From Streptomyces sp. A2-16 (GTDB lineage Bacteria > Actinomycetota > Actinomycetes > Streptomycetales > Streptomycetaceae), in the NCBI RefSeq assembly GCF_018128905.1, contig NZ_CP063808.1, positions 7,626,001 through 7,690,000 of the forward strand: a DNA stretch of 64,000 bases, in the 5' to 3' direction. The notes beneath the pieces are model-generated. The model ran no database searches, was not told the origin of the DNA, and worked only from the letters and a program-made list of their open reading frames with translations. How positions within the stretch are numbered: position 1 is the stretch's first letter; every line of letters starts with the position of its first letter. Made by a program: the position numbers and the translations under genes. Shown here one piece after another: positions 54,567 through 62,564 of the stretch.

Positions 54567-55075
54567 TGACCGAGAAGGAACCCGAGACCCACCTCGACCC
54601 GCGCTACAGCGACCCCGACGCGACAGCGCACTCCTGGGCCGACGCGGAGTCGCTGCTGGCCTCCGCCGAGCTGTTCTGGATCTCGACGGTACGGCCGGAC
54701 GGGCGCCCGCACGTCACACCGCTGCCTGCCGTGTGGGCGCACGGCGCACTGCACTTCTGCACCGGCCCGGAGGAGCGCAAGGCGAAGAACCTCGCGCACA
54801 ACGTGCACGTGACGCTGACGACCGGCACCAACATCTGGGACAAGGGCTACGACCTGGTGGTGGAGGGCGAGGCGGTGCGGGTCTCCGACGACACGAGGCT
54901 GCGTGAACTGGCCGCCGCGTGGGAGGCGAAGTACGGCGACTTCTGGCGCTTCGAGGTGCGGGACGGCTACTTCCATCACGGACCGGGACACGCTGTCGTC
55001 TATGCGGTGGCGCCGCGCACCGTTTTCGGCTTCGGTAAGGGACAGCCGTTCAGCCAGACGCGGTGGCGCTTCTGA
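54566..55075 (+). CDS. Pyridoxamine 5'-phosphate oxidase-like flavin/F420-binding protein
   Basis: A 169-residue split-barrel protein: ELFWISTVRPDGRPHVTPLP, then ALHFCTGPEERKAKNLAHNV and VVEGEAVRVSD fit the PNPOx-like family, which binds FMN or, in actinobacteria, coenzyme F420. Activity (oxidase or quinone/F420 reductase) cannot be told from sequence. The start codon overlaps the LuxR stop by one base. Confidence 0.85.
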   Translation: MTEKEPETHLDPRYSDPDATAHSWADAESLLASAELFWISTVRPDGRPHVTPLPAVWAHGALHFCTGPEERKAKNLAHNVHVTLTTGTNIWDKGYDLVVEGEAVRVSDDTRLRELAAAWEAKYGDFWRFEVRDGYFHHGPGHAVVYAVAPRTVFGFGKGQPFSQTRWRF

Positions 55076-55115
55076 GAACGGCCCGATGCACCGACGTCGA
55101 CAAGGGAGTCACGCC

Positions 55116-55556
55116 ATGGACATGAGCCTCGAAGTCATCCTGCTGCCGGTCACGGACGTGGACCGCGCGAAGGAGTTCTACCGCGACAAGGTCGGCTTCC
55201 ACGTGGATCTGGACGGCGAGGTGATGGAGGGCGTCCGCATCTGCCAGCTGACCCCGCCCGGATCCGGCTGTTCCATCGCCCTGGTGGACGGCCTCCAAGT
55301 CCCGACGGGAACCCCACAGCCCGGGACGTACCACGGCATGCAGCTGTGCGTGACGGACGCGAAGGCGGCGTACGAGGAGCTCACCTCCCGCGGCCTGGAC
55401 GTGAGCGAGCCGGTCCAGTTCGCCCCGCAGGACGGCGCCACCTTCATGTACTTCAAGGACCCGGACGGCAACGGCTGGGCGATCCAGGAGTACAAGCGCC
55501 GGGAGACCGAGCCCCTGCACCAGGTGCTCGCGCAGCTGGCCCGGCAGCAGGGGTAG
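55116..55556 (+). CDS. VOC-superfamily (glyoxalase/dioxygenase-fold) protein
   Basis: A 146-residue vicinal oxygen chelate protein: VILLPVTDVDRAKEFYRDKV opens the first beta-alpha-beta unit and DGATFMYFKDPDGNGWAIQE closes the second with the characteristic DPDGN. Metal ligands are not fully clear. GGGAG precedes ATG 55116. It follows the PNPOx-like gene after 40 bases and may share its operon. Confidence 0.85.
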   Translation: MDMSLEVILLPVTDVDRAKEFYRDKVGFHVDLDGEVMEGVRICQLTPPGSGCSIALVDGLQVPTGTPQPGTYHGMQLCVTDAKAAYEELTSRGLDVSEPVQFAPQDGATFMYFKDPDGNGWAIQEYKRRETEPLHQVLAQLARQQG

Positions 55557-55651
55557 CGGGGACAGCGGGACGGCACGGGAAAGCCGCGGCTCCTCGGTGC
55601 CGCGGCGGTCGTGTCCTGTCCTGCTGTCCACGCCCGTGGAGTGCGGGCTGC

Positions 55652-55894
55652 TCAGTTCTGTCCGGGCGGTGCGTGGCCCGAGGGGTTCTGGTTCTCGGTT
55701 TCCTGGGTGAGTCCGTTGCCGCCGCAGCTCGGCTGCTGTCCTCCGGGCTGGTGGCCTCCGTTGTTGGTGCACTGCGTGTCGACCGGCTGGATCTTGGCAT
55801 CGGCCAAGCCCGCGCCGCCGAGGCTCAGTGCGCAGACGGCGGCACCGGCGCCCAGCGCCATGGCGATCCGCCTCACCGGGGCTCTGCTTGTCAT
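55652..55894 (-). CDS. Small secreted Gly/Gln/Asn-rich protein (80 aa)
   Basis: Signal peptide: RRIAMALGAGAAVCALSLGG with cleavage near LADAKI. The mature ~47 residues are polar (QCTNNGGHQPGGQQPSCGGN), with two cysteines that could form one disulphide. Before the island inserted it lay directly downstream of glnA2 on the same strand. No function recognised. Confidence 0.65.
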   Translation of the reverse strand: MTSRAPVRRIAMALGAGAAVCALSLGGAGLADAKIQPVDTQCTNNGGHQPGGQQPSCGGNGLTQETENQNPSGHAPPGQN

Positions 55895-56036
55895 TCCGCT
55901 CAGCCTCCTGTGTCGATCGGGCCGTGCGGCAGTGCGGTGTCGAACTGTCGCGTCTCGACCTCACGCTTCTCGCCGAAATGGTGCAAGTCAACACAAAAAG
56001 CACATCTTTTTCCGGCAACAGGGACCACACACGACT

Positions 56037-56067
56037 CCGGGCCGACGGCACCATGCCGCCGGCCCGG
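56037..56067 (-). terminator. Stranded native glnA2 terminator
   Basis: CCGGGCCGACGGCA (56037-56050) pairs with 56054-56067 at 13 of 14 positions. It sits 38 bases past the stop codon of the displaced glnA2 end, where a terminator would lie before the island inserted. Confidence 0.7.
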
Positions 56068-56104
56068 ACGCCGTTCCTACCGAGGAGAAACCCAGCGCTC
56101 CCGC

Positions 56105-56193
56105 CCTACAGCACCGGCAGGTTCTTCCGCAGCTCGAAGGCCGTGACCTCGCTGCGGTACTCCTCCCACTCCTGCCGCTTGTTGCGCAGGAAG
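56105..56193. repeat. Left attachment-site copy: 89-bp duplicate of the glnA2 3' end
   Basis: Read on the minus strand it encodes the last ~28 residues of GlnA2 (LRNKRQEWEEYRSEVTAFEL...) and its stop. It matches 60863-60951 at 87 of 89 positions; both differences are synonymous. It marks the left edge of the integrated element. Confidence 0.9.
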
Positions 56194-56290
56194 TGACGGC
56201 GGCCCGGGGCGACCTCAGGCGATCGACGTCTGCGCAGCACTGACCTGAGATCGAACGGCCGTCATTGGTCGTTGTTGGTCGCTGTGGGCC

Positions 56291-56316
56291 ACCCTTCGAC
56301 GGCCCACAGACGGCCC
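56291..56316. repeat. Inner direct repeat B, left copy
   Basis: ACCCTTCGACGGCCCACAGA plus CGGCCC matches 60751-60777 apart from one base insertion and one substitution. The two lie inside the att copies on either side, possibly as recombinase arm-binding sites. Confidence 0.6.
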
Positions 56317-56348
56317 GGCGCCGAGGCCAGCAGATGACCATCCGGGCC

Positions 56349-58163
56349 TCACTCCGAAGAGACGTTGAGCGGGGATAGGCAACGCCTGATGTGCTCCCGT
56401 GCCCGGTCTCCCCTGTGCGCCCCTGCCGCCAGCGCAGCGGTCAGCCAAGCTGGCCCTTTAGCAACACCCAAAGTCGGAGCGAACTTCTCAAGTACACCCA
56501 CCCTCACAAGCACAATTCCGAGTTCATCCAGACGCTTCATTAGCTGCTCCGCCGCGACAGCAGACTGCCCCTCAAACGCCGCTTCGCCGAATTTCTTGAG
56601 TAGGCTCCATGGGCTTTCTTGCGCTCGAATTTGAGCCAGAACCTCGCGTTTTGCATCGTCACTATATTTCTCATCCTCTCTCCCTGCGAAAACAGACTGC
56701 ACCGCCGCGATCACATCACGCAGAGTAGCCGGATTTCGAGACCCCCGAAAAGACTGGGTCGCGACTCTATAGTCACGCTTCAGCAGATTCCAGTCGACGC
56801 CATACGCTTCGACCAATCGAGAAATGGTCACCTCGTCGTTCAAAATGTCAATATCAGGAACCGCAACAACTGGGACATGGATGGCTCGCAGCGCCTTAAC
56901 CAGCTTATAGATTGCCGCCTTACCGTACGACGGAACGAATAGAACATCGCTGGCCGGAATCGGCACATTCGCCCGAGGTTCATATTCATTGAGCGCAGCT
57001 GCATAGAACCGGCAATCCTGATCGGCCTCGGCAACAACAGTAAGCCGATGAAAGAGAGAATCCAGCGTATTCGTGTACCTCAACAACGGGTCACCCCAAA
57101 GCTCCCGAACATCCTCAACGGCAAGCTGATGAGCCCGCGAGGTACCCTCCAGGGTTCTATCGAGACGGACAATGGAAACCTCCGAGTCGGAGGCCAGGAG
57201 CCCGGTCAGGAGATTTTTATCATGCGTCGCTAGAATCACTTGAATCCCCTTCCTCTTTGCAAGGCTACCCAGGATTCTCCCGAGGGCGGTGGCCTGTGGC
57301 GGATGAAGGAAAGCTTCCGGTTCGTCAATCAGGACAATGGGATGTTCGGCAGTCACAATGGGGAGGATGAGCGCGATCAAACTTTTGATCCCATCCCCCT
57401 GTTCCATTAGCGGCGGAAGGCTCGCAACCTCCTTTCGATATTCTGACGAGATAGCATCGGCAGGGGGTGCAGAAATCGCCACCCTTCCTACACGCAACTG
57501 AATCATTCGAGCCAACGTGTCTAGCGTCAAGTCAAGACGAAATACTTCACGACAGATTTCTCGCACTTCAGTCAACATCTGCACCGAGTCCTCTAGGTGG
57601 TGCATCACATTTTTCGGAGGCGTTTCTACAGACTCCCTCATCTCCTGGGGCTGAATAGCTCCTACCCGCTCCCACGGGTCCGCAAATAGCATGAATGAAC
57701 TCACCAAGGGCAAGAGCCTATCTACTCGCCCTTGATCCATTTCACCGAATTGCCGAACATGATGTTCATGCGCACCTCCATGCCCCTGCGTACCAAACCA
57801 AAGCAATCCGTTTTGCATGTACACATTCCCATGCGCAAGGAGCCACGCGCAAAGATCTCTGGAAGTACCCGAGACATTAAAACGAATGTCTGTTACAAGC
57901 CGCCAGCGAGCCGGCCCTACCGCCTCACCGGCATTTCGCGAAGAGAGGGCTGAAATCTGCTTGAGCAACGTCGACTTGCCAACATTATTGCCACCTACTA
58001 CTACTGTCACGCCACGCGATGGCGGATTCAAAGTGAGACCATTTTCGAGCGTGACGGATGCGATAGAAAGTGCGAACTTGTCAGCCTCTCCACCACTCAG
58101 GTTTGCGGGAATAACCACGTTCTCCATCGGCAGCCTGCCCTTCTTCTGCAGTGAGGTGAACAT
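56349..58163 (-). CDS. OLD-like ABC-type ATPase with C-terminal TOPRIM domain; candidate phage-defence nuclease
   Basis: A 604-residue protein. The ATPase domain has Walker A VVVGGNNVGKSTLL (~residues 51-64), Walker B HPIVLIDEPEAFLHPPQ (~280) and switch histidine VILATHDKN (~315). After ~375 comes a TOPRIM-like domain: LTVVAEADQDCRFYAAAL (glutamate) and VPVVAVPDIDILNDE (DxD). This order is that of OLD-family nucleases, several of which defend against phage. Codons ending in A or T are much more frequent than in neighbours, a sign of transfer. ATG 58163 or the in-frame ATG at 58127 may start it; neither has a strong ribosome site. No GajB-type helicase partner is beside it. Confidence 0.82.
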   Translation of the reverse strand: MFTSLQKKGRLPMENVVIPANLSGGEADKFALSIASVTLENGLTLNPPSRGVTVVVGGNNVGKSTLLKQISALSSRNAGEAVGPARWRLVTDIRFNVSGTSRDLCAWLLAHGNVYMQNGLLWFGTQGHGGAHEHHVRQFGEMDQGRVDRLLPLVSSFMLFADPWERVGAIQPQEMRESVETPPKNVMHHLEDSVQMLTEVREICREVFRLDLTLDTLARMIQLRVGRVAISAPPADAISSEYRKEVASLPPLMEQGDGIKSLIALILPIVTAEHPIVLIDEPEAFLHPPQATALGRILGSLAKRKGIQVILATHDKNLLTGLLASDSEVSIVRLDRTLEGTSRAHQLAVEDVRELWGDPLLRYTNTLDSLFHRLTVVAEADQDCRFYAAALNEYEPRANVPIPASDVLFVPSYGKAAIYKLVKALRAIHVPVVAVPDIDILNDEVTISRLVEAYGVDWNLLKRDYRVATQSFRGSRNPATLRDVIAAVQSVFAGREDEKYSDDAKREVLAQIRAQESPWSLLKKFGEAAFEGQSAVAAEQLMKRLDELGIVLVRVGVLEKFAPTLGVAKGPAWLTAALAAGAHRGDRAREHIRRCLSPLNVSSE

Positions 58164-58255
58164 CTTACTGAGCCGCGTAGGAGTGGGGCGCGGAAATATA
58201 ATTCTAGTGATCGAATATCGAACGAAGGACCTGCGTACTGCCTAGCCACTGCTGC

Positions 58256-58320
58256 ATGTCGGTTCCTGGCGGCGGTGACCCGGACACTGTGTCCGGGTCA
58301 CCGCCGCCAGGAACCGACAT
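58256..58320. repeat. 65-bp perfect palindrome with single-base centre
   Basis: Arms 58256-58287 and 58289-58320 are perfect 32-base reverse complements around T58288. It lies between the divergent ATPase and XRE genes and is much more GC-rich than the ATPase gene. Possible roles are a cruciform operator, a strong terminator left from a lost gene, or a replication/transfer hairpin. Confidence 0.92.
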
Positions 58321-58418
58321 TCTTGTTCAGCCAAGCAACAAGCGAGGCCAACTACCTGCCCCGTCAACAGCTCTGTACCGTGAGACAGGCCCCTACAACC
58401 CGCAGGAGGCAGCACGTA

Positions 58419-59099
58419 ATGCGTGGTCTTGGAGATCACCTCAGCATCGGCGAGCGCATCGCGTTCTACCGGAAGCGTCGCGGCTACACGCAAGAGGTGC
58501 TCGCCGGTCTGGTCGGGCGTAGCACGGACTGGTTGGCGAAGATCGAGACGGGGCGCCGGAAGCCTCCCCGGATCGACATGCTCGCGGAGCTGTCGCGCAT
58601 CCTGCGCGTGCCCCTGGGAGATTTGCTCGGTCAGACCGTGCTCATGGAAGACGAGAAACAGCAGGACGACGTCCCAGCCGTGCGTGACGCGCTCATGAGC
58701 CCGCGCCGGCTGTCTCGTCTGCTCTTCGGTCCCGAGGCTGAGGTGCAACTCCCTACGCCGGCGCCCGTGGCCGTGCGTGTGGAGCAGGCCTGGAACGACT
58801 ACCAGGGCGGGCAGCTCGGCAGCGTCATCGCCGCACTTCCCGCGCTCCTCCAGACCGCGCAAGAGCTGGAGGAGCGAGCGGCACGGCGCGGCGCGGACCG
58901 TAGCGACTGCTGGGCAGTGTCGGCCCGCACCCACCACCTTGCAGCAACGACGCTCGCAAAGATCAACTACCTCGGACACAACGATCCGGGGTTCACGCTC
59001 CGCGTCTACACGCACCTCATGCCGAGTAGCGACGCACGGGCCCGGAAGGCCGTGGACGGCCTGTACGAAGGTAATGCTTCAACGCCCTGCGTCCCCTGA
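58419..59099 (+). CDS. Chimeric gene: XRE regulator fused to tyrosine-recombinase C-terminal remnant
   Basis: A 226-residue frame. Residues 1-~182 are an XRE/Cro helix-turn-helix regulator (RRGYTQEVLAGLVGRSTDWL, AKIETGRRKPPRIDM) with the TPR-like start AVSARTHHLAATTLAKI. From ~183 the sequence switches to NYLGHNDPGFTLRVYTHLMP and ends RARKAVDGLYEG, the extreme C-terminus of an integrase, with the catalytic tyrosine in RVYTHL. The rest of the integrase (Arg, His boxes) is missing. The join is near base 58,965 and looks like a deletion between two genes. AGGAGG nine bases before ATG supports the start. DNA binding may survive; recombinase activity should not. Confidence 0.85.
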   Translation: MRGLGDHLSIGERIAFYRKRRGYTQEVLAGLVGRSTDWLAKIETGRRKPPRIDMLAELSRILRVPLGDLLGQTVLMEDEKQQDDVPAVRDALMSPRRLSRLLFGPEAEVQLPTPAPVAVRVEQAWNDYQGGQLGSVIAALPALLQTAQELEERAARRGADRSDCWAVSARTHHLAATTLAKINYLGHNDPGFTLRVYTHLMPSSDARARKAVDGLYEGNASTPCVP

Positions 59100-59114
59100 C
59101 TGGCTCCCCGCGGG

Positions 59115-59152
59115 TAGGAGCCTCCGCCAGTCGAACTCGACGGAGGCTCCTA
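59115..59152 (+). terminator. Terminator after the integrase remnant
   Basis: TAGGAGCCTCCG (59115-59126) pairs perfectly with 59141-59152 across a 14-base loop, 15 bases past the stop codon. Confidence 0.8.
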
Positions 59153-59367
59153 GGCATCGGCCGCGGCGATCGCCATTGGTGGCATGGTGCGAGCACCGCA
59201 TTAGGAGTTCGATCACGCCCCCTCCCGGCTACTGCCGTTGCTCTGTGGGGCGTCAACGTAGAGGTGCTGGTGCGCATCCCCGTCCGGCGTGGTTGATGTC
59301 AGACGTGGATGCCAGAACTCTTCGATCCGTAGGATCTGCGTACGCTCGGGCGCTGGACGACGCGGGG

Positions 59368-60111
59368 TCAAAGCAGGGGGTACCAAAGCGAGCTGGGGAC
59401 CGCTGTAACAGTACCCTGATCGTGCGTCACGTCCCTGGCGGCGAAAAGAGGGCTCCTAGTCTGAGGGTCCGGTGGCGGTAGGTACCAGGCCCGATAGAAG
59501 TACCGAAAGACGCCAATGTTTGGGTTGGTAGCACTTGGGTGAGCGGTCACATTCCCAAGCGAAGTGGTCTCAACAGATTTCCCCGGTTCTTTAATGATAC
59601 CGATCGCGACTTGCCCTCCCGGGGAATATCCACTCCCTATTAGAGTGAAGTCCGTGCTCAGCTGAGTGCGCACCTTCTCGTAGGAGAGGGAAAGGTTTAG
59701 CGGCTTCTTCCTGGCTTCGCGTAGCTCGGGATGCATGCCGCCGTATCCGTTGTGGGTGTCCCATGCCACTTCGAACTCGCGCCCAGCATCGTCTAGGAAG
59801 ATGCCGCGAAACTTGGTCCCCTGATTTGTGGGGGCGCTGGTCACTGTCTGGATCTCGGAGGGTAGCTCGACGCCCCTCTCTTCAAAGAACGAGCGGCCAC
59901 CTTTGCGTGCTTCCCGCATCAGGCCCTCATCGTCGCGCAGCCGATCAAGCAAAGCCAGGAGTTTCTCGTTACGACCAAGCGATAGCAGGATGTTGTGAAT
60001 CCTCAACTCATTGTTGAGATTCCGGAGCTCATCCTGGATGCACTCAACGCGATGCGTGTGCTGACGGAGGTCATTTTCGAGCCTGTGGCGCTTTTCGTCC
60101 TGAGACGGCAT
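59368..60111 (-). CDS. Unrecognised island protein with coiled coil and nitrile-hydratase-leader-like segment
   Basis: I do not recognise the protein. From ATG 60109-60111 (AGGAAGG eleven bases upstream) it is 247 residues: a coiled-coil N-terminus (RHRLENDLRQHTHRVECIQD, ELRNLNNELRIHN), then a stretch RSFFEERGVELPSEIQTVTS that resembles the GxELP-V segment of nitrile-hydratase-like leader peptides, and a beta-rich C-terminal ~140 residues (FRGIFLDDAGREFEVAWDTH, GVFRYFYRAWYLPPP). The frame is open further upstream (ATG at 60192 and 60279 possible). Lower G+C than the host supports acquisition with the island. Confidence 0.6.
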   Translation of the reverse strand: MPSQDEKRHRLENDLRQHTHRVECIQDELRNLNNELRIHNILLSLGRNEKLLALLDRLRDDEGLMREARKGGRSFFEERGVELPSEIQTVTSAPTNQGTKFRGIFLDDAGREFEVAWDTHNGYGGMHPELREARKKPLNLSLSYEKVRTQLSTDFTLIGSGYSPGGQVAIGIIKEPGKSVETTSLGNVTAHPSATNPNIGVFRYFYRAWYLPPPDPQTRSPLFAARDVTHDQGTVTAVPSSLWYPLL

Positions 60112-60750
60112 CTGACTCACAGCCTTCCTGATGTCATTGACGTCTGGCGCGTCCCACCTGTGGTTGAGCGCGAAACGGGTCGCGTTGCGCATCTTTCTGC
60201 GGCGCGTGCGGAGGCTAACCCGCCGAAATCGGCGCTGTGCCGGGTTTCGTGACACCCGTGATCGAAACTTGCACACCATGCGACCGTTAACGGACCCAAT
60301 CCCTCGAACTCCTCTCCCAATAGTGACTCCAATTGGGTTCTTCTGCCACTCCGCTGCGCTCCCCTTGCTTTCGGCAAGGCACTGGCGGGTCAAATGAGGT
60401 CTGCGGAGCGGCATTGGGCTGGAGCTGTTTTGGGGCGAGTGATCACGGCCCCGTAAGCTTCCGGCGAGTTGGGCAGTCTGTGAACCTGCCCGGGAAAGCA
60501 CGACGTTGGGACCATGACCTTAGAGGCTCGCGCCAAAGTGGCTGCCCCCAGCGGTGGAGCCGACCGCCCCAGCCACAGAGGGTGCCTCCCCCTTCATTCC
60601 AGCGGTCGCCGGGCGCGGTGGCCGGGGCGGAGGCAGGAGGCAGGCCGCGCCGCAGAGGCGGCGCGCGCCTGCGCCGTGTGCGGGCCTTGATCGATGCAGC
60701 GAAAGTTCACCGCTGCAGGCGTGCGCAGTGAGTCGCACAGCCCATTGAGG

Positions 60751-60777
60751 ACCCTTCCGACGGCCCACAGGCGGCCC
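60751..60777. repeat. Inner direct repeat B, right copy
   Basis: ACCCTTCCGACGGCCCACAG plus GCGGCCC, the partner of 56291-56316, 86 bases inside the right att copy. Confidence 0.6.
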
Positions 60778-60794
60778 AAAGCCCTGAAAGCGCA

Positions 60795-60827
60795 GTGGGG
60801 CTGACGGTCAGTCACCGTCAACCCCAC
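60795..60827 (-). terminator. Island-supplied terminator for glnA2
   Basis: GTGGGGCTGACGGT (60795-60808) pairs with 60814-60827 at 13 of 14 positions over a 5-base loop, 37 bases past the glnA2 stop. It takes the place of the displaced native terminator. Confidence 0.75.
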
Positions 60828-60862
60828 TCGTTATGTCGAAAGAAAACTAGCCCTGACCAGGG

Positions 60863-60951
60863 CCTACAGAACCGGCAGGTTCTTCCGCAGCTCGAAGGCC
60901 GTGACCTCGCTGCGGTACTCCTCCCACTCCTGGCGCTTGTTGCGCAGGAAG
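60863..60951. repeat. Right attachment-site copy within the glnA2 3' end
   Basis: Forms the functional end of glnA2 and matches 56105-56193 at 87 of 89 positions. Since it is joined to the gene body, this copy probably came with the element and restored the frame. Confidence 0.9.
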
Positions 60952-62225
60952 AAGTCGAAGACGTGCTCGCCCAGGGTCTCGGCGACCAGGTCGCTGCGTT
61001 CCATCAGGGTGAGGGCCTCGCCCAGGTTCTGGGGCAGGGGCTCGATGCCCATGGCGCGGCGCTCGGAGTTGGACAGGGCCCAGACGTCGTCCTCGGCGCC
61101 CGGAGGGAGCTCGTAGCCCTCCTCGATGCCCTTGAGGCCGGCGGCCAGGAGGAGGGCGTAGGCGAGGTACGGGTTGGCGCCGGAGTCGAGGGAGCGGACC
61201 TCGATGCGGGCCGAGCCGGTCTTGCCGGGCTTGTACATCGGGACGCGGACCAGGGCGGAGCGGTTGTTGTGGCCCCAGCAGATGTAGGAGGGGGCCTCGC
61301 CGCCGGCGCCGGCGGTGCGCTCGGAGCCGCCCCAGATGCGCTTGTAGGAGTTGACCCACTGGTTCGTCACGGCGGCGATCTCCGCCGCGTGCTTCAGCAG
61401 GCCCGCGATGAAGGAACGGCCGACCTTGGAGAGCTGGTACTCGGCGCCCGACTCGTAGAACGCGTTCCGGTCGCCCTCGAAGAGGGACAGGTGGGTGTGC
61501 ATGCCAGAGCCCGGGTGCTCCGAGAACGGCTTCGGCATGAACGTCGCCTGGACACCCTGCTCGAGCGCCACCTGCTTCATGACCAGGCGGAACGTCATGA
61601 TGTTGTCGGCCGTGGAGAGCGCGTCGGCGTAGCGCAGGTCGATCTCCTGCTGGCCGGGGGCGCCCTCGTGGTGGGAGAACTCGACCGAGATGCCCATCGA
61701 CTCCAGCATGGTGATCGCCTGGCGGCGGAAGTCCATGCCGATGTTCTGCGGGGTGTGGTCGAAGTATCCGGAGTTGTCGGCCGGGGTCGGGCGCGAGCCG
61801 TCCAGCGGGCGGTCCTTCAGGAGGAAGAACTCGATCTCCGGGTGGGTGTAGAAGGTGAAGCCCAGGTCGGAGGTGCGGGCCAGGGCGCGCTTGAGGACGT
61901 AGCGCGGGTCCGCGAAGGACGGGCTGCCGTCCGGCATGAGGATGTCGCAGAACATCCGGGCCGTGCCGGGGGCCTCGGCGCGCCAGGGCAGGACCTGGAA
62001 GGTCGAGGGGTCCGGCTTGGCGATCATGTCGGATTCGTATACGCGGGCGAAGCCCTCGATCGCGGAGCCGTCGAAACCGATGCCCTCGTCGAAGGCCTGC
62101 TCCAGCTCCGCCGGGGCCACGGCCACGGACTTGAGGAAGCCCAGTACGTCCGTGAACCACAGACGTACGAACCGGATGTCGCGTTCCTCCAAGGTCCGGA
62201 GCACGAACTCCTGCTGCTTGTCCAT
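60864..62225 (-). CDS. glnA2: Glutamine synthetase-like GlnA2 (gamma-glutamylpolyamine synthetase in S. coelicolor)
   Basis: A 453-residue GSI-fold ligase. Signatures: LWFTDVLGFLKSVAV, GFDGSAIEGFARVYESDM, PEIEFFLLKD, PGSGMHTHLSLFEG and NNRSALVRVPMY. The loop that carries Tyr397 in GlnA reads EDDVWALSNSE here, so the adenylylation tyrosine is absent and GlnE should not act on it. The closest Streptomyces protein, GlnA2, glutamylates polyamines rather than making glutamine; this is family knowledge. ATG 62225 has GGGGAAG upstream; an ATG five codons earlier is possible. The island is inserted at its 3' end without altering the protein. Confidence 0.88.
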   Translation of the reverse strand: MDKQQEFVLRTLEERDIRFVRLWFTDVLGFLKSVAVAPAELEQAFDEGIGFDGSAIEGFARVYESDMIAKPDPSTFQVLPWRAEAPGTARMFCDILMPDGSPSFADPRYVLKRALARTSDLGFTFYTHPEIEFFLLKDRPLDGSRPTPADNSGYFDHTPQNIGMDFRRQAITMLESMGISVEFSHHEGAPGQQEIDLRYADALSTADNIMTFRLVMKQVALEQGVQATFMPKPFSEHPGSGMHTHLSLFEGDRNAFYESGAEYQLSKVGRSFIAGLLKHAAEIAAVTNQWVNSYKRIWGGSERTAGAGGEAPSYICWGHNNRSALVRVPMYKPGKTGSARIEVRSLDSGANPYLAYALLLAAGLKGIEEGYELPPGAEDDVWALSNSERRAMGIEPLPQNLGEALTLMERSDLVAETLGEHVFDFFLRNKRQEWEEYRSEVTAFELRKNLPVL

Positions 62226-62564
62226 CTTCGACTTCCCCATCCTTGCTGGTCAGGCCGCCTGTCTCCGTGTCCCGCAGGAGGCGGTCGGGCACCTGAGCAT
62301 CACACCACAACAGCGTTTCGTGCGCGTTGCCGACCTTGATCGTCCCGGCGGCCCGGGAGTGAACGCCTCACGTCCGGCGGATGTACTGCTCCGACGCCCA
62401 TCTTGCCTGCTCGGACTGACATACGTAATGCCCGGCCCTCCCCGTCTCACCACAGGGCCCCGGTTTCCCCAGGGGTCCCTACGAGAAGTCACCCTGCCCC
62501 ACTACGATCAGCGGACCGATCGTCACCGTCCGAGCCGCCCCTTTCCCCCAGAAGGACACACCCC
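62226..62564. other. Divergent promoter region between glnA2 and the DUF3105 gene
   Basis: About 340 bases without a gene. I looked for the GlnR four-part pattern on both strands and did not find it. No palindrome or repeat stands out; both promoters must lie here. Confidence 0.6.

Follow-up and report, generated by a model that had tools for sequence, protein, structure and literature searches.

At the 3′ end of glnA in Streptomyces sp. A2-16 lies a small island flanked by direct repeats, in which one open frame of 226 amino acids (58419-59099, plus strand; ATG at 58419, stop ending at 59099) joins the first part of an XRE regulator to a piece of a tyrosine integrase (Int). Positions are those of the window, the whole stretch of 64,000 nucleotides that was analysed; G and L numbers are our handles for genomes and loci, G000 being the genome of the window. 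Ahead of the start codon there is a ribosome-binding site (AGGAGG, 58404-58409). In the encoded protein 182 residues come from the regulator, 36 from the integrase and 8 from inserted DNA (Table 1).

Table 1. Features of the island at the glnA 3′ end, in order along the window.
Feature	Position	Strand	Description
attL	56105-56193	+	displaced 89-bp copy of the glnA 3′ end
19-nt repeat GACGGCCCACAGACGGCCC	56298-56316	+	inside the left end
604-aa AAA ATPase	56349-58163	-	weak OLD-like TOPRIM match
Inverted repeat	58256-58320		perfect 32-bp arms, 1-nt loop; upstream of the regulator
Regulator part	58419-58964	+	codons 1-182 of a 411-aa XRE (HTH_31) NsdA-like regulator; native start and ribosome-binding site
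Junction (very probable deletion point)	58964/58965	+	1-nt overlap (C), codon phase kept
Integrase part	58965-59072	+	codons 373-408 of a 422-aa glnA-type tyrosine integrase
Insertion	59073-60758		1.69 kb inside the int 3′ end; supplies the last 8 residues and the stop of the fused frame
377-aa ORF	59368-60501	-	lies in the insertion; no recognised domain
Last int codons and stop	60759-60787	+	separated int end; contains the second 19-nt repeat (60759-60777)
attR	60863-60951	+	3′ terminus of glnA in its present form
glnA, glutamine synthetase	60864-62240	-	target gene, open over 458 aa; Pfam Gln-synt_C 5.6e-124

The att copies are 89-bp direct repeats of 98% identity (2 differences), spaced 4758 bp apart, and bound an island of 4.76 kb. 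From the glnA ends of L051, L052, L053 and L054, four genomes with a single match to the 89-bp sequence, the left copy differs at 0, 0, 1 and 1 positions and the right copy at 2, 2, 3 and 1. Since the left copy is closer to these genomes, it is probably the original chromosomal glnA end, the right copy having arrived with the element. The empty arrangement is seen at L077 and L076, where the homologue of the gene to the left of the island (ending at 55556, putative glyoxalase-like) ends 52 bp and 687 bp, respectively, left of the single glnA end. One copy of the 19-nt repeat lies inside each end (56298-56316 and 60759-60777), likewise in G335 and G363, and at the G280 locus the pattern gave one copy only; the repeat is possibly an arm site of the integrase. 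Homology of the left end stops at 56316 for L036, L038, L040 and L070 and extends up to 56335 for others. The G+C content is 0.57-0.62 between 56 and 60 kb and 0.66-0.76 elsewhere in the window, and 18 of the 20 plasmid records matching 56000-61000 were from Streptomyces.

The 604-aa ATPase matched AAA_21 (1.3e-17) and AAA_15 (3.6e-14) in Pfam, with OLD-like_TOPRIM (0.029) below cut-off, and AriA (1.7e-19) and Old (2.2e-19) in PADLOC. Its two longest matches in plasmids reach about 30% identity. The OLD/AriA-like features make the ATPase gene a probable anti-phage cargo gene.

The initial annotation had described the frame at 58419-59099 as an XRE regulator fused in frame to an integrase piece, and this is borne out by separate relatives for each half. 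When the frame was aligned to full-length XRE regulators and to integrases, the former matched up to 58964 and the latter from about 58965. At the DNA level identity to XRE relatives (74-91%) ends at 58964 in all 15 loci shown that have this block, and identity to int (78-95%) starts at 58961-58968 in 15 loci. Both parent genes and both breakpoints are thus directly visible: XRE relatives read AAGATC|GG, int genes (e.g. that of G130) CTGAGC|AAC and the window AAGATC|AAC, with at most one shared base. On these alignments, the meeting of the two homologies at one base is not a matter of chance. The integrase contribution is smaller than the approximately 44 residues first proposed; only 36 (NYLGHNDPGF..DGLYEG, codons 373-408 of 422) are of integrase origin, the terminal NASTPCVP being encoded by inserted DNA. 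The nucleophilic tyrosine assigned to this piece is present, but the recombinase extends beyond the piece and resumes at 60759-60787.

Residues 1-182 are 73-98% identical to XRE regulators encoded at at least 27 places in at least 26 other genomes (392 searched, own included), and all 27 of the matches listed stop at query residue 183; the integrase matches are separate rows beginning at about residue 179-183. Among 21 relatives of measured length, 20 have 411 amino acids and one has 303. The NCBIfam model NsdA_fam_reg matches residues 120-385 of a full-length sister regulator with 51.3 bits, the cut-off being 75, which makes the regulator a likely relative of NsdA below the curated cut-off and not a called member of the family. 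Large XRE regulators of AICEs that are related to NsdA are described in part of the text of PMC3218068; to these the regulator of the window is alike in its XRE N-terminus, its original length of about 411 amino acids and its AICE-like carrier elements, and it differs in being cut after residue 182. The helix-turn-helix domain is intact in the fused frame (Pfam), so that the protein, if translated, would consist of the DNA-binding half of the regulator without most of the TPR-like half. Part of the inverted repeat upstream (23-26 nt of 58256-58320) is also found in the sisters G242 and G280.

Changes private to one genome were scored in the regulator half at sites uniform in G280, G335 and G338, where 0.69 of random changes are nonsynonymous. 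Of the private changes in the window, 1 is nonsynonymous and 12 are synonymous; the sisters G280, G335 and G338 have 3/16, 1/9 and 2/15. By a hand estimate, up to about 4 of the 13 changes in the window could be post-deletion and neutral. Because of the ratio of 1 to 12, either the truncation is young on the branch of the window or the DNA-binding half is still used or constrained. The regulator gene of G324, considered as a second truncation at the same base, was rejected: it has a 48-nt internal deletion, after which the XRE sequence continues for 82 nt.

The integrase tail is 97% identical to that of G122, 95.5% to that of G130 (over 111 bp) and 92.5% to that of G335 (over 106 bp); alone it has no Pfam match above cut-off. 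It contains the tyrosine of VYTH, which we take to be the nucleophile, and the histidine of LGH. As judged from its sequence the piece cannot be a working recombinase, since the catalytic residues upstream are missing.

Homology to int breaks off near 59072 and begins again at 60759; therefore 1.69 kb sits in the last int codons. The 377-aa ORF of this insertion had no match in Pfam or PADLOC and no tblastn match in 72,556 plasmid records, and a 324-aa part of it had none in 198 other genomes of the genus. The segment 60397-60576, without a named gene, shares 77-92% identity with parts of Streptomyces plasmids and 85-88% with the G091 and G017 loci. In G026 and G338 (loci L069 and L097) the same place in the int 3′ end carries shorter insertions (about 0.92 and 0.55 kb), each of which ends just before the 19-nt repeat, and the distance from this repeat to att is 104-106 bp, as in the intact G335, G363 and G130. 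In G059 int homology stops at the same place, att is 1.9 kb away and the 19-nt repeat was not found. The insertion point near int position 1220 is thus a place that recurs in the window's genome, G026 and G338.

Sister islands with both genes in order, which the initial annotation had proposed to look for, exist and can be inspected directly. G335, G363 and G356 have the XRE gene and a complete int in the same order and on the same strand; G280 has the same order, its int match lacking the last codons, and in G180, also in this order, a run of N interrupts int. The distance from the equivalent of 58964 in the XRE gene to the equivalent of 58965 in int is about 11.5 kb in G335, 13.4 kb in G363, 13.1 kb in G280, 17.4 kb in G356 and 12.7 kb in G180. 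Both att copies lie in the fetched loci of G335, G363 and G180, the left one only in that of G280 and the right one only in that of G356. Proteins of G280 match HTH_31, Flavoprotein and GntR, proteins of G335 match FtsK_SpoIIIE, Phage_integrase is found in G335 and G363, and in G363 an HTH_17 gene lies just before int. A 192-aa frame that starts like the G280 flavoprotein follows the XRE gene also in G335 and G363. Such genes are to be expected in an AICE; two candidate frames for a replication gene were tested in the sisters and gave no match.

The same fusion in many strains, which had been named beforehand as the mark of a real domain fusion, was sought and not found. In a protein search of 392 genomes of the genus, the window's own row alone, among the matches listed, spans both halves, and weaker relatives of the regulator (27-44% identity) reach residue 194 at most; in 119 other genomes there was no match crossing the junction. 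A degenerate 27-nt pattern for the junction (LAKINYLGH), which admits only these nine residues and as a control gave 1 match in the window, had 0 matches in a collection of genome contigs from which the window's genome may be absent. A conserved XRE-integrase domain fusion was therefore rejected, the same architecture not having been found in the other strains searched. A close relative with the same island minus the deletion was not found either.

We consider it highly probable that the fused frame is the scar of a deletion in an AICE at glnA that has decayed to a CIME while keeping its flanking att copies. An AICE of the family integrating at the glnA 3′ end would have entered the chromosome, and one end-joining deletion, estimated from the sisters at about 11.5-17.4 kb, would have removed the second half of the XRE gene, its flavoprotein partner, the genes between flavoprotein and int, and int codons 1-372. 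Regulator codon 182 would thus have come to lie next to int codon 373, the two sharing no more than 1 nt at the join and the phase being kept by luck (1 in 3). In a separate event 1.69 kb would have been inserted into the last int codons; that the deletion was a single event and not two steps, and its order relative to the insertion, we infer. The remainder would be a CIME of 4.76 kb, intact attL and attR enclosing the gene of the OLD-like ATPase, one orphan gene and the scar frame. The deletion first envisaged, of the regulator end and most of int, stands in these two parts; it missed the 11.5-17.4 kb between them, including transfer-type genes, and the 1.69-kb insertion. Since 0-1 bases are shared at the join, end joining is suggested and not homologous recombination. 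Streptomyces repairs breaks by Ku-dependent joining with deletions, and the window's genome has two Ku genes above the Pfam cut-off.

Accretion, in which the junction would have formed between two different elements stacked at glnA, strikes us as improbable. Stacking of elements at one Streptomyces site is documented in part of the text of PMC9513070; moreover, the closest int tail (G122) and the closest XRE genes (G280 and G335, among the matches listed) come from different genomes, the tails of G122 (97%) and G130 (95.5%) are closer than that of G335, and extra DNA follows the fusion. Yet G335 alone holds both halves, at 91.1% for XRE and 92.5% for the int tail, a near-equal divergence on both sides such as one parental element predicts, and no third att copy turned up when 55000-62500 was searched for repeats. 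We regard it as quite unlikely that the frame represents a genuine novel gene in which the truncated regulator, together with its 44-residue tail, is expressed and retained, e.g. as a DNA-binding protein that lacks its sensor and acts on the flanking cargo. The native start and ribosome-binding site are kept, the frame is open, the helix-turn-helix domain is intact and the regulator half shows no visible decay (N = 1 and S = 12, where neutral change would give an N share of 0.69); however, so low an N/S is equally expected from a recent deletion, no second occurrence was found in the genomes searched, the last residues come from unrelated inserted DNA and the tail has no Pfam match of its own above cut-off. 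An assembly artefact joining two places is hardly credible, since the window occupies positions 7,626,001-7,690,000 of a single 9.77-Mb contig, the genome is rated 100% complete, and no other high-identity copy of either half was found in it (next best 37% for the XRE part and 56% for the int part, query residues 179-212).

For the preferred reading, a deletion scar in a former AICE, it is of importance what the island has kept. Parts of a functional AICE are missing: there is no complete recombinase, and the three main ORFs contain no FtsK-like TraB translocase, no replication initiator and, by Pfam, no transfer or replication domain. With attL and attR kept, the integration gene lost and transfer genes absent from the three main ORFs scanned, the island corresponds to a CIME, defined in part of the text of PMC5704250 by loss of integration and transfer genes and retention of attL and attR. 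With the island's integrase inactive and no other glnA-type integrase found in the window's genome, where the best one found is 28% identical to that type, the island probably does not move by itself. The statement that the deletion froze the island is nevertheless too strong, since both att repeats are intact and CIMEs are a class treated in the literature as mobilizable by an incoming element. The island resembles the TR1 CIME of Streptomyces scabiei (parts of PMC8369830 and PMC5704250) in having lost integration and transfer genes and kept attL and attR; it differs in the att gene (glnA here, aviX1 in TR1) and in its cargo, and its mobilization is predicted from its class. For another Streptomyces site, part of the text of PMC9513070 describes decayed AICEs that have a truncated integrase and direct repeats, and suggests later mobilization in cis for such remnants. 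Their illustrated example lies in a glycosyltransferase gene, whereas the island of the window lies at glnA and its scar fuses int to a regulator, with the breakpoint resolved to the base.

Five of 18 decayed ints at glnA in the fetched loci (G370, G341, G057, G017 and G000) break within int positions 1108-1117. The five remnants (L075, L098, L101, L165 and window 58965) are joined to different DNA, without mutual upstream similarity. For this cluster, which was noticed first and tested afterwards on hand-picked loci, scan p values were 0.00005 with uniform breaks and 0.012-0.023 with the smoothed observed, 3′-biased distribution (n = 18); with n = 19 they were 0.00025 and 0.011-0.026. The count went from 19 to 18 when G180 was dropped as a 5′-truncated int, its break being a run of N; G278 was kept although the 300 nt upstream of its break include 23 N. 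The break of G000 was entered as 1117, the real junction, BLAST giving 1113; junctions were displayed for 16 of 19 (G298, G091 and G236 left out); and, because G144 and G233 have upstream DNA in common, the breaks are not all independent. That the last approximately 150 bp of glnA-type int are a preferred breakpoint, decay cutting before codon 373 and the tail staying with the glnA-side att, is doubtful, and we treat the recurrent breakpoint as a lead. Because only G000 and G341 among the five show two att matches, continued mobility is not implied for all of them.

The 89-bp att query has matches in 388 of 392 genomes and two matches in 65 (own included; counted by hand), with at most two candidates scored per genome and the closeness of the copies checked in the fetched loci only. 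Near att copies in the fetched loci there are 21 ints with an intact 5′ end and 18 with a lost one; these loci were chosen by hand from lists, and the two numbers are not a frequency. Within the genus, the 3′ end of glnA would seem to be a common place for AICEs to integrate. The words glnA and glutamine are absent from the main texts, supplements aside, of the AICE surveys PMC3218068 and PMC9513070, and a full-text literature search gave no title or abstract opening describing a glnA site. The scar represents ordinary decay of a kind already known, here at glnA. What could easily be annotated as a fusion of regulator and integrase, an odd chimeric ORF, can be read as a base-resolved scar of AICE decay, and its locus draws attention to the glnA 3′ end as a site in frequent use.

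Relatives of the XRE regulator are found, too, at loci that showed no glnA att copy. The conserved pair of XRE regulator and flavoprotein gene (L044:3230-4465, L042:15702-17626 and L034:6044-7839) is carried by glnA elements and, adjoining TIGR02677, TIGR02678 and TIGR02680 genes, by a plasmid.
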